In this document: positions 2,940-22,475 of the stretch, one piece after another
Layout: every line of letters begins with the position of its first letter
Numbering within the stretch: position 1 is the first letter of the stretch
From: a virus
Length of the DNA stretch: 22,475 nucleotides
IMG/VR virus record: IMGVR_UViG_3300013099_000098
Coordinates: 1-22,475 of that record
Direction: 5' to 3' (one strand)
Made by a program: the position numbers and the translations under genes
Notes under the pieces: generated by a model
What the model was told of the DNA's origin: nothing
What the model saw: the letters and a program-made list of their open reading frames with translations, nothing else
Database searches by the model: none

Positions 2940-2974
2940 ATATTACAGGGTTTTTAGCAATAGGTCAACCTATT
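2940..2974 (-). promoter_or_regulatory. Leftward sigma70-type promoter with palindromic operator
   Basis: On the minus strand, TTGACC (2968-2963) is separated by exactly 17 bases from TAATAT (2945-2940), giving 5/6 and 4/6 consensus matches. The -35 box is the centre of a perfect palindrome: AATAGGT, CA spacer, ACCTATT (2959-2974). A repressor or regulator bound there would cover the -35 box. The predicted start near 2933 lies upstream of ATG 2905. Confidence 0.55.
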
Positions 2975-2986
2975 ATTTTGGGCATA

Positions 2987-3004
2987 CTGTTCGAGTCATA
3001 AATA
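2987..3004 (+). promoter_or_regulatory. T4-late-like promoter motif before candidate small RNA
   Basis: CTGTTCGAG (2987-2995), one base, then CATAAATA (2997-3004). The same 17 bases without the extra T recur at 7214-7230. By analogy with the T4 late promoter (TATAAATA at about -13 to -6), transcription would start near 3010, where the first RNA stem begins. No gene lies downstream on this strand for 1 kb. Confidence 0.5.
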
Positions 3005-3009
3005 AAAGT

Positions 3010-3118
3010 GTACCCACTAATGCCATTGTAGGTACCTTTAAAATTTTTACTTGTTTATGACATAAGTAAATTCCTAATAGTCCCTGCTAGTTTACTCTAA
3101 TTTTCTAGCAGGGTTTTT
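3010..3118 (+). ncRNA. Candidate 109-nt small RNA
   Basis: A compact unit with promoter-like motif, three stems and terminator, and no ORF of note. Stem 1 is GTACC (3010-3014) with GGTAC (3031-3035). Stem 2 is TTTACTT (3046-3052) with AAGTAAA (3064-3070). Stem 3 is the terminator hairpin (3082-3113) with its T run. The predicted start at 3010 coincides with the first paired base. It does not resemble a tRNA or any RNA family I recognise. It could be a regulatory RNA or a short abortive leader. Confidence rests on the coincidence of promoter, folding and terminator. Confidence 0.45.
3082..3118 (+). terminator. Strong rho-independent terminator
   Basis: CCCTGCTAG (3082-3090) pairs perfectly over nine bases with CTAGCAGGG (3105-3113), followed by TTTTT (3114-3118). 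It has no protein gene upstream on the same strand. This implies that a short RNA is made from a promoter between about 2980 and 3050. Confidence 0.85.
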
Positions 3119-3986
3119 AATGGAAGAAATATCTGCGGTGTCAATCACTTCGGATAAATAACAATGTAGCATGAATAACTGTTTGGAGCGGTTCGCTACA
3201 TAATCATCTACAAACACCCCACCGATTTAACAAAGAATTCCCTGTGTGATGTAAAGTAGATGACGCATCCTCCAAGCACAGGGATATTCCCTTCAATGAC
3301 AGGCTCCATTTTAGATTAGTAAACTTCAGAAAAGTTGAACATCGCCCGCCAAATTTATGCTCAGATGCTAGCAAACTGTGAACCGAAAAGGCAAGCGATA
3401 AAATCTCCCTTAGTAACGATCAGTATAAAAGAACCCCCTGTGTATTGTCGAGGAGACAATATCACCAATCTGTCAGCATAGTTAGAGGCTGACTATAAAA
3501 AATATTTCTATCATGAATCCAATTGGGGCCGAGAGGCTAGATAAGGATGACCGACTATAAACTTTGTTAGAGTTGTTTATAGCGACAGCGTTGATAACAC
3601 CGGGCATTAAAGGGAGACCACCAACCACCCCTGCGTATAGCTTTGCAAACTAAATGATGAAAGACCTAAAGCAAGACCTTTTTGATACTGTGGCTTGAAA
3701 TACAAGCCATTGTATGACTTCCTCTCCTTAAGCAAGTTATTCTTTAAAGTATTCATTAAAACATTATTCAAGTTCTTTCTAAAAACAAAAGTTAAAACCA
3801 CTGCGAAATAAACTATTATTGAGCGAATGCGAAATGATTGTTTGTGAAGAAGTAGTTGAATGCGTAGCATTAAACAGACTAAGGTGATCTACTTTAATGC
3901 TTTTCATCATAATGGCTAAAAACAATCCTCACCGGATCCGCTATCCTCAGTTTGCAAATGAGGATTAAAATCTTTTCGGGTCGCAA
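3119..3986. other. Long gene-poor, hairpin-rich control region
   Basis: About 870 bases without a convincing gene. It holds a row of perfect inverted repeats: CCCTGTG/CACAGGG (3240-3246, 3277-3283) enclosing GATG/CATC; TATTGTC/GACAATA (3443-3449, 3455-3461) with loop GAGGA; GTCAGC/GCTGAC (3472-3477, 3488-3493); CTATAAAC/GTTTATAG (3555-3562, 3575-3582); TGGCTTG/CAAGCCA (3691-3697, 3703-3709); and ATCCTCA/TGAGGAT (3943-3949, 3959-3965). GATAAATA at 3153-3160 is a weaker copy of the promoter core. A minus-strand frame (3607-3870) exists but has no ribosome binding site. The region lies between divergent operons and could hold non-coding RNAs, an origin or both. Confidence 0.5.
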
Positions 3987-3988
3987 TA

Positions 3989-4000
3989 CGAGTATAAATA
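3989..4000 (+). promoter_or_regulatory. T4-late-like promoter of the endonuclease operon
   Basis: CGAG (3989-3992) directly followed by TATAAATA (3993-4000), a perfect match to the T4 late promoter core. The predicted start near 4006 lies just before the GAAGGAG ribosome binding site (4008-4014) and the ATG at 4026. Confidence 0.55.
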
Positions 4001-4025
4001 CATGCATGAAGGAGACTAAAAACTA

Positions 4026-4463
4026 ATGAAGCTACAATACGACAATGCAAAGGTAATGGACCCAAGACCCGGAAACAATTTTTGCACCACATATTTCAGA
4101 CTATCGAAGGAGAACATGGGCCATGCGCGATTGCACATTGCATCTGTGTTAGAGGCAATTGATAAAGTACAAAGAGAAGACCCAATAACATATGCATGGA
4201 TAGGCGAACCCTTTAAAGGATTTCCTAGGCAAGGCAAGCAAGCTAATTACTCCATGATGTCTATTGTCACTGATCTCACCCGCCAAATAATTTCTGGAAA
4301 GGATATTCCAAGCGGAATGCTGTCGCGTTGGAATCGCATGTTCAAAGGAACCCCATGGGACTTGATCCTCACAAAGGAAGCCCAACCCCCTCCTCCTAAC
4401 CCCAATTTACCGGATACACCGCTATTTAGAAAAATACAATCTAAGTTAGACGCGCAAAAATGA
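4026..4463 (+). CDS. Hypothetical protein, first gene of the endonuclease operon
   Basis: A 145-aa basic protein with a mixed helical middle (GHARLHIASVLEAIDKVQRE, about residues 32-51). A Gly/Pro/aromatic stretch (YAWIGEPFKGFPRQGK) follows, then a helix SIVTDLTRQIISG and a proline-rich linker, PPPPNPNLPDTP, near the C-terminus. No family is recognised. GAAGGAG at 4008-4014 precedes ATG 4026 by 11 bases, under a TATAAATA-type promoter. Its stop overlaps the start of the endonuclease VII-like gene as ATGA. The coupling suggests a partner or regulator of that nuclease (inference). Confidence 0.6.
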   Translation: MKLQYDNAKVMDPRPGNNFCTTYFRLSKENMGHARLHIASVLEAIDKVQREDPITYAWIGEPFKGFPRQGKQANYSMMSIVTDLTRQIISGKDIPSGMLSRWNRMFKGTPWDLILTKEAQPPPPNPNLPDTPLFRKIQSKLDAQK

Positions 4464-4852
4464 AGTTAACACAAAAGACCGCTGTCTTTTCTCGGAATTT
4501 ATTTTATAAACAGCAAGGAGATGTTTGCGCATTATGCAAGCAACCCATTAAGAACAATCCGCATTTAGATCACTGTCATAAAACAGGATATGTTAGAGGA
4601 ACCCTGCATAAGGACTGCAATATTTTATTAGGGAAGATCGAAAACTACATTAAGAGCATGGGAAAGGAACTTAGCACCGAAAATAGATTAGGAGCTTTCC
4701 TACAAAATGCATTCCTCTATTTGGAAGCTGATTACAGTAGCAACCCAATCTACTATACCCATAAAACAGAAGACGAAAAACGCCTGCGCAAAAATAAACG
4801 CGCAAGAGCAAAATATAAGAAGGAGAAACAGAATGTCAAGAGCACCAAGTAA
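4460..4852 (+). CDS. Endonuclease VII-like HNH (His-Me finger) nuclease
   Basis: A 130-aa protein. Residues 21-62 match the recombination endonuclease VII pattern (T4 gp49 type): CALC (C23, C26), LDHCHKTGYVRG (D37, H38, H40) and HKDCNILLG (C53, N54). In the family, a CxxC pair and a second Cys pair bind zinc, and the DH plus the Asn form the active site. Here the third zinc ligand appears to be His50 in place of Cys. The basic tail (residues 105-130, many Lys/Arg) would bind DNA. T4 gp49 has 157 aa and cleaves branched DNA before packaging. This protein may do the same, or may be a homing or nicking nuclease. It overlaps its upstream neighbour by ATGA, and the ribosome binding site of the next gene lies within its 3' end. 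Confidence 0.85.
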   Translation: MKLTQKTAVFSRNLFYKQQGDVCALCKQPIKNNPHLDHCHKTGYVRGTLHKDCNILLGKIENYIKSMGKELSTENRLGAFLQNAFLYLEADYSSNPIYYTHKTEDEKRLRKNKRARAKYKKEKQNVKSTK

Positions 4853-5576
4853 TTACGGAAGGAACCTAGAGTCCCCGCATTACAGATACAACCAACAAAA
4901 AGCACAAGCAGATTATCGAAATGAGGCCTGGGCAATAACACTTGAAGAGTGGACAGCATGTTGGGATGAATCCGGCAAATGGGATCAAAGAGGAAGAGGT
5001 AAAGGAAAATACCGCATGACACGGATCGACGCATTATACCCATGGCAACTTGATAACATCGAAATAACATCCCGCAAAGGCAGGAGAGTGCGCCCCCTTA
5101 ATGCGCCCCCTGTAACAAGCAGGAAGCCAATTAAACACGGCGATGGCCACGCAATATCCAGCAAGGAAGTTATTATTAACGGAGTAACTTACGAATCCCA
5201 AAACAAAGCCGCCATGGCATTAGGCGTATCTCCGAGCATGATTAGATACAGAGCTTGCGGCAACGAAGACTACCCAAATTGGACTTATGTAGATCCTGCT
5301 AATGCAACGAGCAAATACAAGTATATTAAAGTTGGTAACAGAGACCCAGCATGGCAAGAAGAGAATAATCGCTTAAATAGAATTGCTGCCCTTAACAAAT
5401 ATATTAAAACTTCAAATAGAGAAATGAAGAAGATTAAGCTCAAAAGGCATAAATTACAAGTCACCCTGCAGCGAACACAAAAGTCCATAATAACTTGGGA
5501 CAGGAATATTGACATTGAAGCTGCAAATCACAAAGCACTAACGGATGAACTTAAAACACTGGAGAACAAAGAATGA
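4833..5576 (+). CDS. DNA-binding protein with an IENR1/NUMOD-like repeat and C-terminal coiled coil
   Basis: A 247-aa protein. ATG 4833 has GAAGGAG seven bases upstream and overlaps the endonuclease gene by 20 bases; the open frame upstream to 4707 is ignored. Residues about 25-80 contain ITLEEWTACWDESGKWDQRG, then GKGKYRMTRID, PWQLDNIEI, a W/G/R-rich pattern seen in phage proteins linked to HNH and homing elements. Residues about 112-153 (bases 5166-5291) are one helix-turn-helix repeat: NGVTYESQNKAAMALGVSPS, then IRYRACGNEDYPNWTYV. Residues about 170-247 are a long Lys/Arg-rich coiled coil. No nuclease residues are seen. Its stop overlaps the next ATG (ATGA). It probably binds DNA near the adjacent nuclease's target (inference). 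Confidence 0.65.
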   Translation: MSRAPSNYGRNLESPHYRYNQQKAQADYRNEAWAITLEEWTACWDESGKWDQRGRGKGKYRMTRIDALYPWQLDNIEITSRKGRRVRPLNAPPVTSRKPIKHGDGHAISSKEVIINGVTYESQNKAAMALGVSPSMIRYRACGNEDYPNWTYVDPANATSKYKYIKVGNRDPAWQEENNRLNRIAALNKYIKTSNREMKKIKLKRHKLQVTLQRTQKSIITWDRNIDIEAANHKALTDELKTLENKE

Positions 5577-5887
5577 AACTACAAGAACTAAAGCACCTAT
5601 TAGAACAAAATGGAACAGTCCGAGTCCGCATAGCAACCCGCGGCAACCAAGACATTACAAAGTACATATCCGAAGAAGAGAATAAAGGAAACCTAAGCAC
5701 TAGGCTATCCAGCGACGGATTTTATGTACAGGTAACCACAATCGATGAACCCATTACAGAAGAAGATTTCATGGACTTAGATTGTAAATATTGTGAAGGC
5801 ATGGACCCCGGATGCAAATATTGCGTTGAGCCCGATGAGGACAACGAAGGCGCCGAAGTCCAAATTGTTGGCAACGAAGATGAATAA
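5573..5887 (+). CDS. Small acidic protein with a double CxxC motif
   Basis: A 104-aa protein. The N-terminal half (MKLQELKHLLEQNGTVRVRI) looks like a helix then strands. Residues about 70-85 hold CKYCEGMDPGCKYC, two CxxC pairs six residues apart, a likely small zinc site. The C-terminus is very acidic (EPDEDNEGAEVQIVGNEDE). Start and stop overlap both neighbours (ATGA at 5573-5576; eight bases with the gene at 5880), so all three are coupled. An acidic zinc protein between two basic DNA-binding proteins could be a partner or a DNA-mimic modulator, but this is a guess. Confidence 0.55.
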   Translation: MKLQELKHLLEQNGTVRVRIATRGNQDITKYISEEENKGNLSTRLSSDGFYVQVTTIDEPITEEDFMDLDCKYCEGMDPGCKYCVEPDEDNEGAEVQIVGNEDE

Positions 5888-6707
5888 AAAGAAGAAGGTA
5901 CTTGGCGAAGGAATAGTATACGCATCATCTAAGGAAGCAGGAATAGCAACCGGCAAAACACCCGCAGCTATCCATAACAGGATATTACAAGACACATTCC
6001 CAAACTGGATGTATTACGAAGACGGAGATGTAATTAATGTTGTCCCAAATCCAAAACGAGTCCGCCCAAATCAAAAGCAAGTCTTAATAGACAGCGTACT
6101 TTACGATAATATGGGCAGCGCAGCAGAAGTCCTCGACCTATCATATCCTTGCTTGCATTGCAGAATGGGTAACCCGAACTTTCCTAATTTCACCTTTTGG
6201 CAAGAAGGAGACTCCCTAGTATCTGCTCCTGGCCCTATTAAGAAAGTTAGACAAAAGAAAGTACAACAGCAACAGGTCCTAGTAGACAGCGTACTATATA
6301 AAAATGCAGCGGTCGCAAGCAGAGAACTTGGAATAGGTGATGCCCAAATCCGCATTAAGATTAATAGCGAACGATTCCAGAACTACACATATTGGAAAGA
6401 CGGAGACTCCCTAGTATCACTGCCTCCACCGAAGAAGGCAACTGTCGCTCCTAGCGCCCCCAAGCCTAATAAAATACAAAAGAAATCCAAGCCCACAATG
6501 CAGCCCATCCCGGCTAGTTTCTCCAAGCCGAAGAAACTCAAAAAGAATAAAATGGATGAGTACAGCTTCTTAGTGTACAGGAACGAGAATCACGAAGGAT
6601 ACCCTGCCTTTAATATGACTGAAGAAGAATGGGAACTTAATAGACATACTCTCCTGCATGAGCACTTATACGGATATTACGACGAGAACAACAATGCCCG
6701 AGAATGA
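5880..6707 (+). CDS. Triple IENR1/NUMOD-like repeat protein without a nuclease domain
   Basis: A 275-aa protein from ATG 5880, which overlaps the upstream stop by eight bases. It has three tandem repeats. The first (residues about 7-50) has IVYASSKEAGIATGKTPAAI then FPNWMYYEDGD. The second (68-111) has SVLYDNMGSAAEVLDLS then FPNFTFWQEGD. The third (133-176) has SVLYKNAAVASRELGIGDAQ then FQNYTYWKDGD. Each is a beta strand, a helix-turn-helix (x-EA/AA/AS-xxLG) and a W/F-rich strand. The linkers are Lys/Pro-rich (PNPKRVRPNQK; PGPIKKVRQKK; PPPKKATV). The C-terminal 75 residues start basic and end acidic and are unrecognised. Repeats of this type normally position homing nucleases (GIY-YIG, HNH) on DNA. 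Here no nuclease is attached, so it should be a sequence-specific DNA binder, perhaps serving the endonuclease VII-like protein of the same operon. Confidence 0.65.
   Translation: MNKKKKVLGEGIVYASSKEAGIATGKTPAAIHNRILQDTFPNWMYYEDGDVINVVPNPKRVRPNQKQVLIDSVLYDNMGSAAEVLDLSYPCLHCRMGNPNFPNFTFWQEGDSLVSAPGPIKKVRQKKVQQQQVLVDSVLYKNAAVASRELGIGDAQIRIKINSERFQNYTYWKDGDSLVSLPPPKKATVAPSAPKPNKIQKKSKPTMQPIPASFSKPKKLKKNKMDEYSFLVYRNENHEGYPAFNMTEEEWELNRHTLLHEHLYGYYDENNNARE
6081..6407 (+). repeat. 195-bp internal duplication (repeats 2 and 3 of the 5880 gene)
   Basis: Two identical tracts recur exactly 195 bases (65 codons) apart: TAGACAGCGTACT at 6088-6100 and 6283-6295, and GGAGACTCCCTAGTATC at 6207-6223 and 6402-6418. 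The units begin at 6081 and 6276. The bases between are much more divergent, so the ends of the unit are better conserved than its helix-turn-helix core. Confidence 0.75.
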
Positions 6708-9523: not shown

Positions 9524-10873
9524 ATGGCCAATTCAGAAATAGACAACTTACTAGCAGTCAATGCACTCTACACAGACAACAAAGCAGTTTGGCAATATAT
9601 GCAGGACTCTTACCTGGGCGGACAAGTTTACCGCAAAGCAGGATACCTTACTAATTACACTAACGAAACATCCGCCGAATATAACCAGCGCCTACTAGTG
9701 ACACCACTAGACAATCATTGTGCCAGCGTTATATCCGTCTACAACAGTTTCCTATTCCGTGTAAGTCCAACAAGAACATTTGTGAACTTAACGGAAGACG
9801 AAACCAATCCATTCTTAGCTGATGCAGACTTTGATGGGCGCTCCCTAGATAACTTTATGAAAGATGTCGCAACCTGGTCATCAGTGTTTGGACATGTTTG
9901 GACAGTTCTAGTCAAGCCTAACACAAACGCTGGCACACGAGCTGACGAACTGGCCCAAGATGTAAGACCCTATATTAATTTGCTGACGCCACTAAGCGTA
10001 ACAGACTGGGCATGGACTAGACAGGAGAATGGACTTTATGTATTGACATATTTCAAATACATAGAAGGCGTGCGCGGATCCCAAATTACCCTTAAGGAAT
10101 GGACTCCAGATTTTGTTCGTACTGTAACCATAGACAAGGATGAAGACGAAATCGTTGCTGACCTTGTTGAAGAAAATGGATTAGGAACAATCCCAGCTGT
10201 CATAGCCTATAACCAACGCTCTCCAATTAGGGGAATTGGCCTTAGTGACATTAACGACATAGCGGACGAACAACGATTAATCTATAACCTAAACAGTGAA
10301 ATGGAACAAGGGATTAGATTAGAAGGGCACCCTAGCTTAGTCGCCACAGTGGACACCTTAGAGAAGGCTGGTAGTGGCGCTGGTGCAATAATTGCAATGC
10401 CAGAAAACATGGATCCACAGTTGAAGCCGTTCATGCTTGTATACGATGGAGCTCCAATTGACGCCGTCCTTAAGGTTATTGAAAAGTCTGTCACAGCTAT
10501 TGACAAAATGGCTAATACTGGCGCCGTTCGTGCAACAGAAGTCCGTACACTTTCTGGAGTGGCAATGGAAACTGAATTCCAATTGCTTAACGCTCGCCTG
10601 TCAGACAAAGCTAACAACCTAGAATTAGCAGAAGAACAAATTTGGCGCCTATTTGCTTTATATGAAGAAAAAGCATTTGGGGGCACAATCGAGTATCCTG
10701 GATCATTTAACATCCAAGATCTCAAAAACGAGTTTGCGCAATTAGTTACGGCTAAGAGTGCAGCAACAGATCCGAAAGTCCATCAACTAATCGACCGTAA
10801 AGTGGTTGAATTGTTTGGTGATGACGCGGAAATTATACTGGGAACGCCAGAAAATCCTGGAAACGAACAGTAA
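9524..10873 (+). CDS. Portal protein
   Basis: A 449-aa protein directly after the large terminase and before a scaffold-like gene, the standard place and length for a siphovirus portal. The N-terminal half has the strand- and loop-rich pattern with many Trp/Tyr (WAWTRQENGLYVLTYFKYI). The middle holds a segment like other portals, IPAVIAYNQRSPIRGIGLSD then DIADEQRLIYNLNSEMEQG. The C-terminal half is helical (LSDKANNLELAEEQIWRLFA), matching stem and crown helices. Twelve copies should form the ring at the unique capsid vertex. AGGA at 9512 precedes ATG 9524 by seven to eight bases. A long hairpin separates it from the scaffold gene. Confidence 0.85.
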   Translation: MANSEIDNLLAVNALYTDNKAVWQYMQDSYLGGQVYRKAGYLTNYTNETSAEYNQRLLVTPLDNHCASVISVYNSFLFRVSPTRTFVNLTEDETNPFLADADFDGRSLDNFMKDVATWSSVFGHVWTVLVKPNTNAGTRADELAQDVRPYINLLTPLSVTDWAWTRQENGLYVLTYFKYIEGVRGSQITLKEWTPDFVRTVTIDKDEDEIVADLVEENGLGTIPAVIAYNQRSPIRGIGLSDINDIADEQRLIYNLNSEMEQGIRLEGHPSLVATVDTLEKAGSGAGAIIAMPENMDPQLKPFMLVYDGAPIDAVLKVIEKSVTAIDKMANTGAVRATEVRTLSGVAMETEFQLLNARLSDKANNLELAEEQIWRLFALYEEKAFGGTIEYPGSFNIQDLKNEFAQLVTAKSAATDPKVHQLIDRKVVELFGDDAEIILGTPENPGNEQ

Positions 10874-15068: not shown

Positions 15069-17213
15069 ATGGCTGATGTAAAATATACAATTGATGTAAA
15101 CACTACCCAGGCAGTCGCTAGTGTTGACAAACTAAACAAGTCCTTAGATAAAACATCTAAGCAAATGAAGAAGACTGACAACAGTGCCAAAGGAATGGGC
15201 AAAGGACTGACCTTAGCAAAAGCTGGCATTGCGGCCCTTGCTGTAGCCACCACCGCAGCATTAGTAGGAATGATAAAAACAGCAGCCTCCTTCGAAACAA
15301 TGAAGACCACCCTTGTTGCGGTAACAGGCAGCACAAAGGAAGCGGCAATTGCATTTAGATTCATCCAAGATCTTGCAAAACAATTACCCGGCAGTTTAGA
15401 AGAAACAACCCAAGCATACACAAAATTAACAGCATTAGGTATTGCTCCAACAAAGGCAGCAATGATATCCTTCGCGAACACCGCATCAGCAACAGGCAAA
15501 AGTTTAGACCAGTTTGTTGAAGCAGTGGCAGACGCAAATACAGGCGAATTTGAGCGATTGAAAGAGTTCGGTATTAAAGCTAGGAAGGAAGGCGAGAATG
15601 TTGCCTTCACTTTCCAGGGTGCGACCACTACAGTTAAGAATAGTTCCGAAGAAATCCAAGGATTTTTACAAAGTATTGGTGACACTACTTTTGCAGGCGC
15701 TGCAACTAAGCAAATGGACACTTTGTTAGGTCGTTATTCCAACTTCAAAGACACCTTAGCCACAATTAGCGACGACATTGTTAATAACAGTGGATTAATG
15801 GACTTGTTGAAAGATGGATTGTCCGGATTAACCGTTGCTATACAAGCAACCGTTGAAGGAGCCCAAGAATTTATCGCTTTTGTCGGAAAAGAGCTTCCTG
15901 CAGCAATGTCCGTTTGGGCAGATTGGTTAGGAATTACTGAAGCACAGACAAAAGCATTCGCTGACGGCAGTAGTACGGCGCTAGGTGGACTGAAAACCAC
16001 TTTTGCCGTATTGTTTACCGACACACGCCACCTAGGTGTTGCGATGGTTGACGGACTTGTTAAGGGATTCTTAGAATTGCAACATGTCTGGGAACTATTC
16101 ACAGCAACAATGGCATTTGGTTGGACAGAATCCATTAACGAGGTTGAACAAACCTTTGTTGAGATGGTAAACTTCATAATTGAAGGCATGAACAAGCTTG
16201 CCGTCATCCCAGGATTTGGGGATTTCAATATTGAGCTATTAGACATTATTGAAGACACTAAAACCTATAGTGAAGTAATAGCTGATGTTGACGCAGCGGC
16301 AAAAGCTAGATTAAAGACCCATCAGGACACTATTAATTTATGGCACGATGAAATTACAGTTAGCCAAGAAGCTGCAGAAACACTTAAGGAACGAATTAAG
16401 CTAGAACGCGAAGCAGAGTCAACACAACACGATGCAAACCTAAAGCAAAGACAGCAAGAACAAAATGAAGCAGCAGCACTACAAAAGAAAAATGCAGAAG
16501 CAGCAAAAGAGTTAACAGATGCAAACGAAGACCTAGCAAAGCAAGTTAAAAGCCTTGCTGAAGCCAACAAGACCCATCTGCGACGACTTAACGAAACCGA
16601 AAAGGCATTACTCAAGAATAGGGCAGCATTAATGGAGGTCGGCGTAACAGCAGAAGAGTTTGCAGCCGCAATGGCAAACATTAATGAACAGCAATTGCGT
16701 GAAAGCAGAGATTTTGCAGACGGCTGGACAGTAGCAATGGAAGATTATGCTGACGCAGCAACTAATTCTGCACAAATTGCAAAGGATGTCTTTGCAGACA
16801 CAACAGATGCAATGGAAGATTCCATTATGAAATTTGTTAAGACTGGTAAGTTTGGATTTGAAGAACTAAGTCAAGCAATTGTCGACAGTTTGTTAAATGC
16901 GCAGATTGCTAAATTAACATCAAGCATTTTTGGAAGTAATACTGGCAGCGCAGTTGGTAGTTTGTTTGCAGGCTTCTTCGCAGACGGTGGAACAATCCCT
17001 GCAGGTAAGGTTGGTATAGTTGGTGAACGAGGACCAGAGTTGGTAACAGGTCCTGCAAGCGTAACTCCAATTGGTGGACAAATGTCTGGCAACATTACTT
17101 ATAATATTAACGCGGTTGACGCAATTAGCTTCAAGCAATTAGTGGCAAGAGACCCGGCGTATATTTACGCTGTGACAGAACAAGGTAGGAAGACACTTCC
17201 TAGCGGGAGATAA
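15069..17213 (+). CDS. Tape measure protein
   Basis: A 714-aa protein. The N-terminus is coiled coil (VDKLNKSLDKTSKQMKKTDN), followed by a hydrophobic helix (residues about 50-72, GIAALAVATTAALVGMIKTA) and the conserved block AAIAFRFIQDLAKQLPGSLE with TALGIAPTKAAMISFANTAS. A long Ala/Glu/Lys/Gln coiled coil occupies about residues 430-530. The C-terminus holds the lambda-type end FADGGTIPAGKVGIVGERGP then ELVTGP. The length suggests a tail of about 107 nm at 1.5 angstrom per residue. ATG 15069 follows the previous stop by one base, with AGGAAG upstream. No lytic transglycosylase or peptidase motif is visible. Confidence 0.93.
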   Translation: MADVKYTIDVNTTQAVASVDKLNKSLDKTSKQMKKTDNSAKGMGKGLTLAKAGIAALAVATTAALVGMIKTAASFETMKTTLVAVTGSTKEAAIAFRFIQDLAKQLPGSLEETTQAYTKLTALGIAPTKAAMISFANTASATGKSLDQFVEAVADANTGEFERLKEFGIKARKEGENVAFTFQGATTTVKNSSEEIQGFLQSIGDTTFAGAATKQMDTLLGRYSNFKDTLATISDDIVNNSGLMDLLKDGLSGLTVAIQATVEGAQEFIAFVGKELPAAMSVWADWLGITEAQTKAFADGSSTALGGLKTTFAVLFTDTRHLGVAMVDGLVKGFLELQHVWELFTATMAFGWTESINEVEQTFVEMVNFIIEGMNKLAVIPGFGDFNIELLDIIEDTKTYSEVIADVDAAAKARLKTHQDTINLWHDEITVSQEAAETLKERIKLEREAESTQHDANLKQRQQEQNEAAALQKKNAEAAKELTDANEDLAKQVKSLAEANKTHLRRLNETEKALLKNRAALMEVGVTAEEFAAAMANINEQQLRESRDFADGWTVAMEDYADAATNSAQIAKDVFADTTDAMEDSIMKFVKTGKFGFEELSQAIVDSLLNAQIAKLTSSIFGSNTGSAVGSLFAGFFADGGTIPAGKVGIVGERGPELVTGPASVTPIGGQMSGNITYNINAVDAISFKQLVARDPAYIYAVTEQGRKTLPSGR

Positions 17214-17903: not shown

Positions 17904-18500
17904 ATGGCTTCGTACACAACCACACACGGGATTAAAGATTTAACAGATAGCAGCGGCATTGAGTCGGCTGTATTTGTTAAATGGGTTGTAACTGGCTTAG
18001 GAACCACCTTGCTAAGTGACTATGACCAAAGCACCACAATTGATGGCGATACTTACGAGAGCATTGGAAACTTGTTAAGCGTAACGGCACCTCGATCAGA
18101 ATTAAGAGCATCCCCTGCAGAACTTACAATTACAATTAGTGGAATCCCAACTGACAGTGTTACTGATGTTTTAAACAGCGACATTAAAGGAAGCACAATA
18201 AAAGTGTCTCGCATATATGAAGACCACCAAAGTTCTGCATCCGGCTCATTTGTAATCTTTAATGGCATTGTGACCAATTACAGTATTACAGACAGCGTAG
18301 AGCCCGGCAGCAAAACAGCGGCAACAGTTATTGCGTTGACAGTGAATAACATTGTTGAAATACTTAATCGTAAAACAAACGGCCGCAAGACCCATCCACA
18401 AGACTTTTTAGATCAAACTGGCAGCATTGATAGCGTCATGTTCGATCTAACTGCAATATTAAAAGATAAAGATTTACAAATAGGAGCACCAAACAAATGA
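17904..18500 (+). CDS. Minor tail / baseplate protein
   Basis: A 198-aa beta-rich protein directly upstream of the tail-tip gene: SAVFVKWVVTGLGTTLLSDY, SPAELTITISGIPTDSVTDV, KTAATVIALTVNNIVEILNR, then a helix and a Lys-rich end. The layout resembles hub-associated minor tail proteins of siphoviruses (lambda gpL/DUF2163-like), but I cannot prove the family. ATG 17904 follows the previous stop by one base. Its stop overlaps the tail-tip start as ATGA. Confidence 0.55.
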   Translation: MASYTTTHGIKDLTDSSGIESAVFVKWVVTGLGTTLLSDYDQSTTIDGDTYESIGNLLSVTAPRSELRASPAELTITISGIPTDSVTDVLNSDIKGSTIKVSRIYEDHQSSASGSFVIFNGIVTNYSITDSVEPGSKTAATVIALTVNNIVEILNRKTNGRKTHPQDFLDQTGSIDSVMFDLTAILKDKDLQIGAPNK

Positions 18501-21500
18501 GTTTCTTCGGAGCAGCATTATCCTGGCTTGGCGGCGACAGCACAAGTGCAACCATTACTAAAATTGCACTTATTAATTACACCGCATCATTAATTAATGA
18601 CAACACAAAGTCCGACAGCATCGACGCTGAGGATCCCGGTGTAAGGATTCAACTTGATGCAAGTGTTGACAATACATTCCCAGTTTTATATGGAGATGCA
18701 TATTTCAGTGGAAATTTAGTATGGGCAGAAAGAAGTAATGATCTTAAAACAATGACATATGTTTTAGCCTTAGCTGAGAGCAACGATGATAATTTATTAA
18801 GTACAGGCTCAGCTCACACTTACACTGTCGGCGACATATACATGGACGGCAATAGAATAACATTTGAAGGCGACGGATATACTGTCGCAAAGACTACCGA
18901 CAGCAACGGAAACGATGATGAAAGCATGGCTGGGCTGATTGAGGTTTATGTCTATAAAAATAATTTAGGAATATCAGGTACGGGCGGCTACATATACAAT
19001 ACAGTTGGTCAGGCATCAAACTTTATTGCGGATGATACTTTGCTAGCGGCGGTTGTCGTAACATATAATAGATCAGCCGGAACTGCTGAATTGCCTGTAA
19101 TGACATTTAATATTGACAGTGGGCAAACCTTGCCCGGAGATGTATTATATGATTATATGACAAATACTGTATACGGCGCAGGGATTCCCGCAGCTGAAGT
19201 AGACACAACCTCTTTAGCAGCATTAAACACATACGGATCAACGGGCTTTAGTTACGACGATCTAGTCCCATCTGCGCAAACTGGAATAATAGGAATTAAT
19301 GGATTAGTTGATGTAACCAAACCGGTAATGTCAAATATGGAAGACCTTTGTACTTCTGTAAATGCATGGCTCGTATATGATTCCCATACAGGACTGTGGG
19401 GCGTCAAGATTAATCAAGCAGAGGCGTCATCTGTTTCTTTTACAGATTATAATATCATAGGAGATATTACTGTAACTGGGACAAGCTTAACGCAGATAGA
19501 TAATACAGCCTCAGTAAGATTCCAAAACACAGACATTATTGATAAAACGGATAAGGTTACTATCACAATTGACCCCGGCGACTTGTATGATTATGAACCG
19601 GAATCAACTTCGTTTATTGAACTGCCATATTGTAATAAACAGGTAGTCGCAATAAAAATTGGTCTTGTCGCATTAAAGCAAGCTCGAGTTGATAAAGTTA
19701 TAACATTCAAAACTGATTACAGTTATATGCAGGTTGAGGCTGGGGCAGTTATTGATATAACTTCATCAGTTTTTGGATATACTAATAAACTGTTCCGCGT
19801 AATGAATGTTACCGAAACAGAAAGCCAAGACGGGATAGAAATAGAATTCTCCTGTATTGAATACGATGCCGATGTTTATGCATACGACATTAATGAATAT
19901 GCAATTGTTACAGATGATGGTCTATTAACACCCGGCGCAATCGGAACACCAAATACCCCAACTGTAGATGACTACAGTGAAACCAACCAACCGCATGTAG
20001 ACATTAATGCAGTGGTACCTAGTGGTATTGTTGATAGAATGGAATTTTGGGTAACATACGATACAACGGTTACGCCAGACTCATCTAGAGAATATAGCCT
20101 TGTAGGAAATACGCGGGCAACTAACTCCGCGCTGTACACAGAAAACGACGATGTGGTTTTGTATTTCAATTCCACTAGCACAAGAGATTTTTATGTAAAA
20201 GTTCGCGGCGGCAATGCTGTAACCGTCGGCCCATTTAGTGCGATAAGCGGATTAATTGAATATGTTCCTGTTGTCGCAGCGGACACAGCAGATGCAGGCA
20301 CACCGGGATTCTCTTTGCAGGATCTTGCAACCCAGCTTGCTCTTTCGTATTTGCTTGGGTTACTTGACGACCTTATTGATGGCAGCATTACTGACACTAT
20401 TGGTGACGCTATTGCTGCAAACGATCTAGACGGAATCGCAAGCACCCTGCCAACAGATCCAGATTTTGTACAAGACATGGATGACGCATTAAATGCACTT
20501 GCGCCCCCAACAACCGTTCCAGACGCGCCAACCGGGTGTAGTGGATATCCTACTTCCGACACAGCCATTACAGTTAATTGGACAGATAATGCAACAGACG
20601 AAGATAGCTATGTCCTAGAAAGAAGCTTAGACGGATTGGTTTTTGCCGACTTGGTAACACTCGTAAAGAACACAGTTTCGTACAACGACACATCGGTTGT
20701 AGCTGAGACTAGTTATTGGTATCGTATTAGGGCTGTAAATATAGTTGGAAATTCTAGTCGTTGCACAACGGATGAAATTGAAACTCCTGCCGCAGGAGTT
20801 ATTCCACCTATTCCTAGCGATGACCGCCCGGGAGACGGCAATTATAGCCAACCATTAATATTAGTGGCCCAACAGCCACAAAGCAATGCAAACAATGTAT
20901 CTGAACTTGGATCTGTATATATTCAATACAGATCAAATGTGTATGAACTATTTTCTGCTCTAACAAAAGGCACAACGGAATCAGCAAGAATATATAGTTC
21001 TGACGGCACTCTTATAGAAACAAAGGCAGCATCGACATTTGTAATTGATAACGACTGGGTTGAGATCCCATTTGCTACTAGGGCACTAGGTACTGATTAT
21101 TATATTTTGATGGACGAGGGTTGCATAACATATTGTGACGAATTCTCCCCGGAATTTATAGTGCCGACTGCATGGTACTTCGATACTACAATTACAACTA
21201 AGCCTGCGGAAACTGCACCTGTTGCAGACGCACTACCAACTTACTCAAATACAATCACAGGATACACACCCGCCGGCGTTGATATTTGTCCTGATAAATT
21301 ATACATTAATTTCGAAATAGATTACATCGAAGTCGGATCCACTGCAGGAGTTTCTATATGGGATGATTCCGATGATTCATTAATCCACGCGTTTGATGAG
21401 ACTGACATGGAAATAGCAGGGGGTTGTGGCAACCAATTACAAGTTAACGATGTTGCACAATACCTGACCCCAGGGGTCGACTGTTATGTTACTGTTATTG

Positions 21501-22237
21501 CATCATCCGTTGATCCATCGGAATGTGGAATTAGTCCTAGTCCAACATCCGATGCATTAACAGGAACACCGAGTGCATGGACCTTTAGTACCATGGCTGC
21601 TCCGTTATTAGAATTAGTGTATGCTTCGTACGACGAAGTTGATCCACCTACTGTAACATCGCCAATTGACGATTCAACAGCGGTTAATTCAGAAACAGAT
21701 ATATACTTGCAATTTGATCAAACTGTTACACTAAGGAGCACAGCGGGCGCAAGTGTTTATTTACACAAGACTTCAGATGATTCCTTAGTGCAACAATTTG
21801 ACCCATGGAGGACTTTTGCGTCTGACGGAGTTTATGAAATAATTACTGTTTCGGATCTTGATGAAGATACAGGTACCGGAACAACTATAAAAATAAATCC
21901 AACCGACGATATGGAAATTGGTACGGCGTATTATTTGTTAGTTGACGCCGATTTAGTAACTAATTCTTGTGGATATGGCAACGCTGCCGTAACCGATAAA
22001 ACTACTTATAACTGGACAACAATCGGCCAGGCGTTTGTTGAATCGCTTGTCCCCGATACGCACGATGGCAATCCTTACGAAGATCCGGATGTTGTGCAAA
22101 CACCAACGGAGCTTGTTATTACATACGATAGATTGGTAGCATTAAATACTGGTGCCCTAGTCATATATGATTCCACAGATAGTGTTGTGGCAACATACGA
22201 TGCTATGGATTCTGAAGTAACAAGCTTAGATATATAG
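18497..22237 (+). CDS. Tail tip / host-specificity (J-like) protein with FN3 and Ig-like repeats, ending at an in-frame amber
   Basis: A 1246-aa protein. Residues about 1-460 form the hub part (VLYGDAYFSGNLVW, GDVLYDYMTNTVYGAGIPAA, TASVRFQNTDIIDKTDKVTI), as in J-like central tail tip proteins. Residues about 672-765 are an FN3 domain (DAPTGCSGYPTSDTAITVNW then YRIRAVN). Four Ig-like repeats of SbsA/Big_5 appearance follow (about 784-898, 914-1033, 1040-1175 and 1185 on). The first three end in a W/F strand: AWYFDTT, AWTFSTM, YNWTT. The fourth breaks off at TAG 22235-22237 after SEVTSLDI, yet the same frame stays open past the stop and supplies the missing strands, ending DWDFWTTG. AGGAG precedes the ATG. 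The protein would bind the host and trigger DNA release. Confidence 0.85.
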   Translation: MSFFGAALSWLGGDSTSATITKIALINYTASLINDNTKSDSIDAEDPGVRIQLDASVDNTFPVLYGDAYFSGNLVWAERSNDLKTMTYVLALAESNDDNLLSTGSAHTYTVGDIYMDGNRITFEGDGYTVAKTTDSNGNDDESMAGLIEVYVYKNNLGISGTGGYIYNTVGQASNFIADDTLLAAVVVTYNRSAGTAELPVMTFNIDSGQTLPGDVLYDYMTNTVYGAGIPAAEVDTTSLAALNTYGSTGFSYDDLVPSAQTGIIGINGLVDVTKPVMSNMEDLCTSVNAWLVYDSHTGLWGVKINQAEASSVSFTDYNIIGDITVTGTSLTQIDNTASVRFQNTDIIDKTDKVTITIDPGDLYDYEPESTSFIELPYCNKQVVAIKIGLVALKQARVDKVITFKTDYSYMQVEAGAVIDITSSVFGYTNKLFRVMNVTETESQDGIEIEFSCIEYDADVYAYDINEYAIVTDDGLLTPGAIGTPNTPTVDDYSETNQPHVDINAVVPSGIVDRMEFWVTYDTTVTPDSSREYSLVGNTRATNSALYTENDDVVLYFNSTSTRDFYVKVRGGNAVTVGPFSAISGLIEYVPVVAADTADAGTPGFSLQDLATQLALSYLLGLLDDLIDGSITDTIGDAIAANDLDGIASTLPTDPDFVQDMDDALNALAPPTTVPDAPTGCSGYPTSDTAITVNWTDNATDEDSYVLERSLDGLVFADLVTLVKNTVSYNDTSVVAETSYWYRIRAVNIVGNSSRCTTDEIETPAAGVIPPIPSDDRPGDGNYSQPLILVAQQPQSNANNVSELGSVYIQYRSNVYELFSALTKGTTESARIYSSDGTLIETKAASTFVIDNDWVEIPFATRALGTDYYILMDEGCITYCDEFSPEFIVPTAWYFDTTITTKPAETAPVADALPTYSNTITGYTPAGVDICPDKLYINFEIDYIEVGSTAGVSIWDDSDDSLIHAFDETDMEIAGGCGNQLQVNDVAQYLTPGVDCYVTVIASSVDPSECGISPSPTSDALTGTPSAWTFSTMAAPLLELVYASYDEVDPPTVTSPIDDSTAVNSETDIYLQFDQTVTLRSTAGASVYLHKTSDDSLVQQFDPWRTFASDGVYEIITVSDLDEDTGTGTTIKINPTDDMEIGTAYYLLVDADLVTNSCGYGNAAVTDKTTYNWTTIGQAFVESLVPDTHDGNPYEDPDVVQTPTELVITYDRLVALNTGALVIYDSTDSVVATYDAMDSEVTSLDI

Positions 22238-22246
22238 GAAAATATA

Positions 22247-22475
22247 ATGGTAACAAAAACTGAAATAACAATAGATATTAGCGCACTGTCGCTCGACCCA
22301 AATGCATATTATTATGTTCAAGTTGATGAGGGCTTTTGCCTTGCTGAAGACGGTGGCGTTGGAATGCCCGGCGCAGACACCGCTGCAATAGAAGACCAAG
22401 ATTGGGACTTTTGGACGACTGGTAATTTCGATCATACAATTGTCGCTCCGCTAGATGGAATTAGTTCGGGGGCTG
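22247..22475 (+). CDS. Continuation of the tail-tip frame after an amber codon (partial)
   Basis: The reading frame is the same as that of the 18497 gene and continues past TAG 22235-22237 through the end of the window without another stop. From ATG 22247 it reads MVTKTEITIDISALSLDPNA, YYYVQVDEGFCLAEDGG, then DWDFWTTG near 22412-22428, then starts a new segment (TIVAPLDGISSGA). AGGA at 22236-22239, seven bases before the ATG, could allow separate initiation. It is either the C-terminal part of one protein made by readthrough, a second polypeptide, or the result of a mutation or sequence error. Confidence 0.6.
   Translation, partial: MVTKTEITIDISALSLDPNAYYYVQVDEGFCLAEDGGVGMPGADTAAIEDQDWDFWTTGNFDHTIVAPLDGISSGA

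Follow-up and report, generated by a model that had tools for sequence, protein, structure and literature searches.

A gene boundary conserved among 17 virus contigs falls, judging by sequence profiles, inside a single Ig-like (Big_5/SbsA/CopC-like) domain, with the complementary half of that domain in the next gene. In the record in which the boundary was first noticed, the reading that we favour, at a probability of roughly 0.78, is that a J-like tail-tip gene ends normally at TAG 22235, that the next tail gene starts at ATG 22247, and that the two chains complete one Ig-like domain. The two separate proteins would then probably share one domain, plugging a host-binding fibre onto the tail, and it is the pairing in trans that we infer.

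The J-like gene ends within its fourth Ig-like repeat

The window, meaning the whole stretch of DNA that was analysed, is an entire virus record of 22475 bp, classed as linear, in which gene annotation gives the usual order of terminase, portal, capsid, tape measure and tail. Downstream of the tape measure (15069-17213) and a tail protein (17904-18500) lies the gene of interest, which occupies 18497-22237 on the plus strand, starts at ATG 18497 and encodes 1246 aa. Residues 46-518 of its product match the 'host specificity protein J' of Methylophilaceae phage P19250A (28.7%, E 6e-42, tblastn), and the Phage-tail_3 family PF13550 is matched at E 5e-4, under the family cut-off. The homologous N-terminal region, together with a gene position following those of the tape measure and distal tail proteins, identifies the product as a J-like tip attachment protein.

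Repeat alignment resolves three complete Ig-like repeats on the plus strand at 20849-21193 (residues 785-899), 21194-21595 (residues 900-1033) and 21596-22024 (residues 1034-1176), each ending in the W/F strand that had been described in the first-pass annotation. The third shows a weak Big_5 match, as PF13205 (Big_5/SbsA) aligns to residues 1049-1175 at E 5e-4 with a score of 21.2, below the curated cut-off of 23.6. The first half of a fourth repeat (22025-22234, plus strand) forms the 70-residue C-terminus of the J chain and aligns, at 9.4e-08, to positions 4-53 of a profile that is 103 positions long and was made from uncut repeats; J homologues end here too. The plus-strand TAG at 22235-22237 was confirmed in the frame of ATG 18497, so that the tail-tip frame does end inside the fourth repeat as first proposed. 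Database searches found no near nucleotide or protein relatives of the junction site itself, in collections from which records very similar to the window may have been excluded.

Several other features of the record were observed. The contig end falls inside the gene after J (20849-22475 region), and the opposite end (1-1173) carries a beta-rich ORF at 34-675 together with two small ORFs that resemble membrane proteins, which fits a position downstream of tail-fibre genes. No end repeats were found in the record, which may be a cut circular genome without part of the fibre gene. Elsewhere, within 4460-6707, the gene of an endonuclease VII-like protein (PF02945, E 4e-15) stands before those of two proteins whose repeats resemble the I-TevI DNA-binding domain (PF20987); one of these two has a 195-nt internal duplication at 6078-6418. 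About 1.1 kb at 2942-4025, between minus-strand ORFs and ATG 4026, holds no convincing gene.

The sequence after the stop has its own start signal and resembles the rest of the domain

Past the TAG, the J frame stays open up to 22474, a run of 79 codons with a chance probability of about 0.006 from base composition, while the open run past the stop never exceeds 44 codons in any other of 21 genes. The in-frame codon usage score of this stretch is 0.234, like that of the genes of this phage (the J average is 0.20), as against -0.34 and -0.48 in the other plus-strand frames. The open frame claimed at the outset is thus upheld, with the codon usage of this phage. A plus-strand AGGA Shine-Dalgarno at 22236-22239 overlaps the J stop and lies, as that early claim stated, 7 nt before ATG 22247, which is the normal spacing in this phage (for instance AGGA-7-ATG at 9524 for the portal). 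A comparable start within 15 nt downstream accompanies 65 of 5111 internal codons (1.3%), 15 of them in frame (0.3%). We assign the plus-strand stretch 22247-22475 to the next tail gene, of which 76 codons precede truncation by the contig end and whose N-terminus, to about 22432, corresponds to the second half of repeat 4.

That the residues after the TAG complete the fourth repeat, also proposed in the first-pass annotation, was no more than suggestive from the window alone, where shuffled sequences scored as high in 6 of 500 cases for the post-TAG part and in 1 of 500 for the whole domain. The homology is now clear because profiles of relatives were added: with the window left out of their construction, these detect its J half at E 2.8e-11 and its post-TAG half at an iE of 3e-4.

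Relatives share the cut point

A starting scan with an alignment of the window J and the P19250A J led to a viral locus, L015, whose J gene likewise ends in TAG with an overlapping AGGA inside the matching half repeat, its next gene following 14 nt on in another frame. L015 was the only one among the loci from the J N-terminus scan to carry the half-domain end. Scanning with the C-termini of the window and L015 J proteins gave 40 viral loci, and a further scan with a three-row alignment added L136 and L137. Junctions were tabulated in detail for 17 virus contigs representing about 15 lineages, none of the relatives being an isolate.

Comparison of the homologous tail-tip proteins across the site, as had been recommended, showed a stop there at every one of the 17 junctions. 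J terminates at one shared point of the fourth repeat, typically ...IYDxxNxVVATIPSxDPxIT... and then the stop, which is TAA at 14 junctions and TAG at 3. The distance between the J stop, counted at its first base, and the next ATG is 2-18 nt, and AGGA, GGAG or GAGG precedes that ATG in 15 of 17 cases. Relative to J, the next gene is in frame 0 in seven, +1 in three and +2 in seven. Since three different frames are used, no common readthrough or frameshift rule applies and the chains are most likely separate, with their own starts. The J half has a median identity of 32% between lineages. Among the relatives no uncut homologue with the domain in one frame was found; terminase relatives (27-29%) gave no J match, and no annotated phage record was found in which the domain is split between J and the next gene.

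In five loci (L122:2142-2315, L123:8583-8756, L128:2672-2842, L129:3872-4087 and L130:7957-8172), the first half of the domain is encoded not by J but by a +1-frame mini-ORF (56-71 aa), which starts 17-23 nt ahead of the J stop at an ATG without a clear Shine-Dalgarno; the gene after the mini-ORF encodes the second half. The mini-ORF could represent either a third chain or a +1 frameshift.

The next gene encodes the complementary half

The complementary half is present in the next gene of every relative in which that gene is readable. The N-termini of the next proteins read MGIRTKVEIDPASLGITWAANTSYRIAIEEGFVIEDGG...LSFTTNATGP in L120 and MKITVDTKGLLTWLPGETYRLEIEAGAIIDSLGDS...RAFTTNSTGP in L100, with MVTKTEITIDISALSLDPNAYYYVQVDEGFCLAEDGG...DWDFWTTGN as the window counterpart, and the N-terminus downstream in the window is homologous to those of the next genes in L096, L100, L104, L111, L120 and others. 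A second-half profile trained on 14 next-protein N-termini also found matches in next proteins outside the training set, namely those of L098 (E 4.5e-9), L133 (1.9e-7), L015 (3.5e-4), L119 (9e-6; best stretch 2e-3), L122, L123 and L126-L132.

The 103-position profile, for which only complete, uncut repeats from this set of proteins were used, is independent of the trained profile and free of its circularity. On it, J ends at about position 49-57 in 16 of 17 cases, L015 scoring poorly there, and the next proteins start at about 53-69 where they are scored. The J end and the next-protein start occupy positions 1-52 and 58-103 in L097, 11-56 and 59-103 in L104, 5-54 and 60-102 in L133, and 4-53 and 58-89 in the window, where the second half scores 3e-4. 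The second halves of L099, L111, L120 and L015 are weak on the independent profile, and support there comes from the trained profile and direct alignment. PF13205 has matches clearly above its cut-off in the next-protein repeats of L120 (E 2.6e-23), L097 (6e-42) and L133 (2.5e-19), and both window halves match the profile that includes these repeats. At the level of sequence profiles, then, two chains carry complementary halves of one Ig-like domain.

In three relatives the second half is preceded by extra residues, about 215 in L098 (4110-4760), 145 in L119 (8910-9345) and 210 in L015 (4216-4845). The extra stretch sits exactly at the domain cut and the second half is retained; in L098 it appears LamG-like by eye. 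The next proteins of relatives carry further Big_5 repeats or domains that are LRR-like (DUF285) or rich in glycine, which is what a receptor-binding fibre would be expected to have. The notion that the second half is an unusually conserved anchor was unsupported, its median identity being 28% vs 28% for the following 100 residues. A scan of bacterial genomes returned one multi-repeat protein, from a Cytophagales MAG (L141:7347-13806), which is uncut and is not a J; it is about 2150 aa long (2153 aa) and bears some 15 Big_5-like repeats in one chain.

The two halves are predicted to fit one fold

For structure prediction with AlphaFold2, both window halves were fused as one chain with the TAG read as Q and supplied with 41 alignment rows. 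The resulting model has pLDDT block means of 87-97 over residues 21-100; a run without the alignment gave a pLDDT of 37 and was useless. In the fused model the TAG becomes residue 68, which belongs to the end of strand 62-70, the strand running up to the break. A hairpin turn comes next, with the Met of the downstream chain (residue 72) in it, and leads into strand 73-81. The break would thus lie at a tight beta-hairpin, placing the last strand of J beside the first strand of the next protein.

VIA-align matched the model to CopC and to the CopC-like YcnJ domain with Z scores of 5.8 and 5.5, both below the decisive level; the alignments cover model residues 21-120, and hence both halves, with the CopC match extending over 79 residues. 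Foldseek against the PDB gave no match below 1e-3. BFVD returned an uncharacterised phage protein (9.6e-4) and, lower in the ranking, an Ig-like protein of the SbsA type as well as a tip attachment protein J. The fold is partly imposed by uncut paralogous repeats, which the model alignment contains, and the model indicates that the halves fit one fold rather than that they associate.

Alternative explanations

The first-pass annotation had listed four options for the stop and leaned to amber readthrough, in which a few per cent of ribosomes would read the TAG, so that a long tail tip accompanies a more abundant short form. In its favour, the 79 codons after the stop are open in the J frame and supply the rest of the repeat. 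The relatives tell otherwise, as their stop at the matching domain position is TAA in 14 of 17 and their next gene is out of frame (+1 or +2) in 10 of 17, so that no conserved frame for an extension emerges. L015 J, also TAG-ended here, closes within seven codons in the J frame. ATG 22247 moreover has a full Shine-Dalgarno at the usual spacing of the phage, and a search for the suppressor tRNA that had been suggested found no tRNA gene in the record. We therefore regard readthrough as improbable, and of the options on that list the one that stood has translation reinitiating at ATG 22247, so that two chains make up a split domain; the junctions of relatives support it. A stop mutation or base error might be suspected of a TAG so close (240 nt) to where a metagenomic contig ends, yet L015 has TAG and AGGA at the homologous place, other relatives also stop there, and the downstream ATG has a proper Shine-Dalgarno; the homologues already largely refute this explanation, to which we give very little weight. 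Still less credible is a change of genetic code by which the window phage would read TAG as an amino acid. Among 21 firm genes, it is true, just one uses TAG as its stop, but gene-like ORFs end in TAG at 1793 and 14222, the single in-frame TAG compares with dozens expected under recoding (207 Gln codons in 5839), and the record holds no suppressor tRNA. The specific alternative of TAG as Gln (code 15) is refuted within the record by the one in-frame TAG and the same two TAG-ended ORFs.

The strongest competitor, though itself unlikely, is an ancient gene fission without pairing, in which the boundary was fixed once by chance, the halves fold or are tolerated alone, and the chains meet elsewhere; in one variant, J halves of the trimer pair with each other. 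Such a history would be compatible with the disorder or homotypic association that is possible for half domains located at protein termini. Against it, the lineages that retain both halves are too far apart for chance, as the median J-half identity indicates, the second half persists in L098, L119 and L015 with extra residues in front of it, and the model places the break at a hairpin.

Discussion

On the favoured reading, in which the J gene ends normally at the TAG and two chains share the domain, the next tail gene would be translated from its own Shine-Dalgarno overlapping the J stop. The first half of the domain would form the end of the J chain, and the second half would sit at or near the N-terminus of the next protein. 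Coupled translation may make both chains side by side, whereupon they would complete one Ig-like domain in trans, and the shared domain would fix the downstream protein to the tail tip as a receptor-binding module. The proposed advantage is that the next gene could be exchanged without touching J.

In donor-strand complementation of chaperone-usher pili, the gap in an Ig-like domain is filled by a segment that the adjacent subunit provides. There one strand is donated, whereas here a different gene product would contribute about half a domain, a single time at each junction. The J gene of P19250A (KX815270) is homologous to that of the window over the first 500 residues (28.7%), and its next gene likewise begins 9 nt after the J stop with a Shine-Dalgarno overlapping that stop. 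In contrast to the window, P19250A J has no similar Ig-like repeats at its end, and its next gene encodes an unrelated 156-aa fibre protein.

The RTX adhesins FrhA and MpIBP contain split Ig-like domains inside single polypeptides that support another domain at the adhesin tip (PMC10865825). The J domain resembles these in being an Ig-like domain cut in two in sequence, and the LamG-like stretch at the cut in L098 recalls the sugar-binding domain at the cut of FrhA, but the adhesin halves belong to one polypeptide (PMC10865825) while those described here lie in two genes and two chains. In phi29-like phages of Gram-negative hosts the tail knob gene is split in two, and beta-sheets are predicted to draw on two different monomers (PMC11476376). 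One tail protein is there too divided over two genes; unlike J, the tail knob p9 is an unrelated protein and fold, and the cut is not described as lying inside an Ig-like domain (PMC11476376). Literature on split Ig domains in phage tails yielded only these precedents, the RTX adhesin (PMC10865825) and the tail knob (PMC11476376), and the open-access literature, which misses most subscription journals, gave no account of an Ig-like domain common to two adjacent tail proteins. The split J domain would thus represent intermolecular completion of a beta domain, a kind of arrangement already known, with its sharing by adjacent tail proteins having no precedent that we found.

Gene boundaries normally respect domains, and one that is maintained within a domain in many virus lineages suggests a selected joint at which the host-binding protein docks on the tail tip. 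An in-domain stop followed by an open frame need not, as a caution, mean readthrough or error. The split-domain junction offers a sequence mark for receptor-binding genes in uncultured phages, together with a small, testable half-domain pair. A bolder proposal, for which we consider the odds about even, is that the junction is an obligate two-chain Ig-like plug and socket, used by a widespread group of uncultured tailed phages, by which any downstream protein with the matching half could be mounted on the tail tip. If that is true, phages could swap receptor-binding proteins by exchanging one gene.
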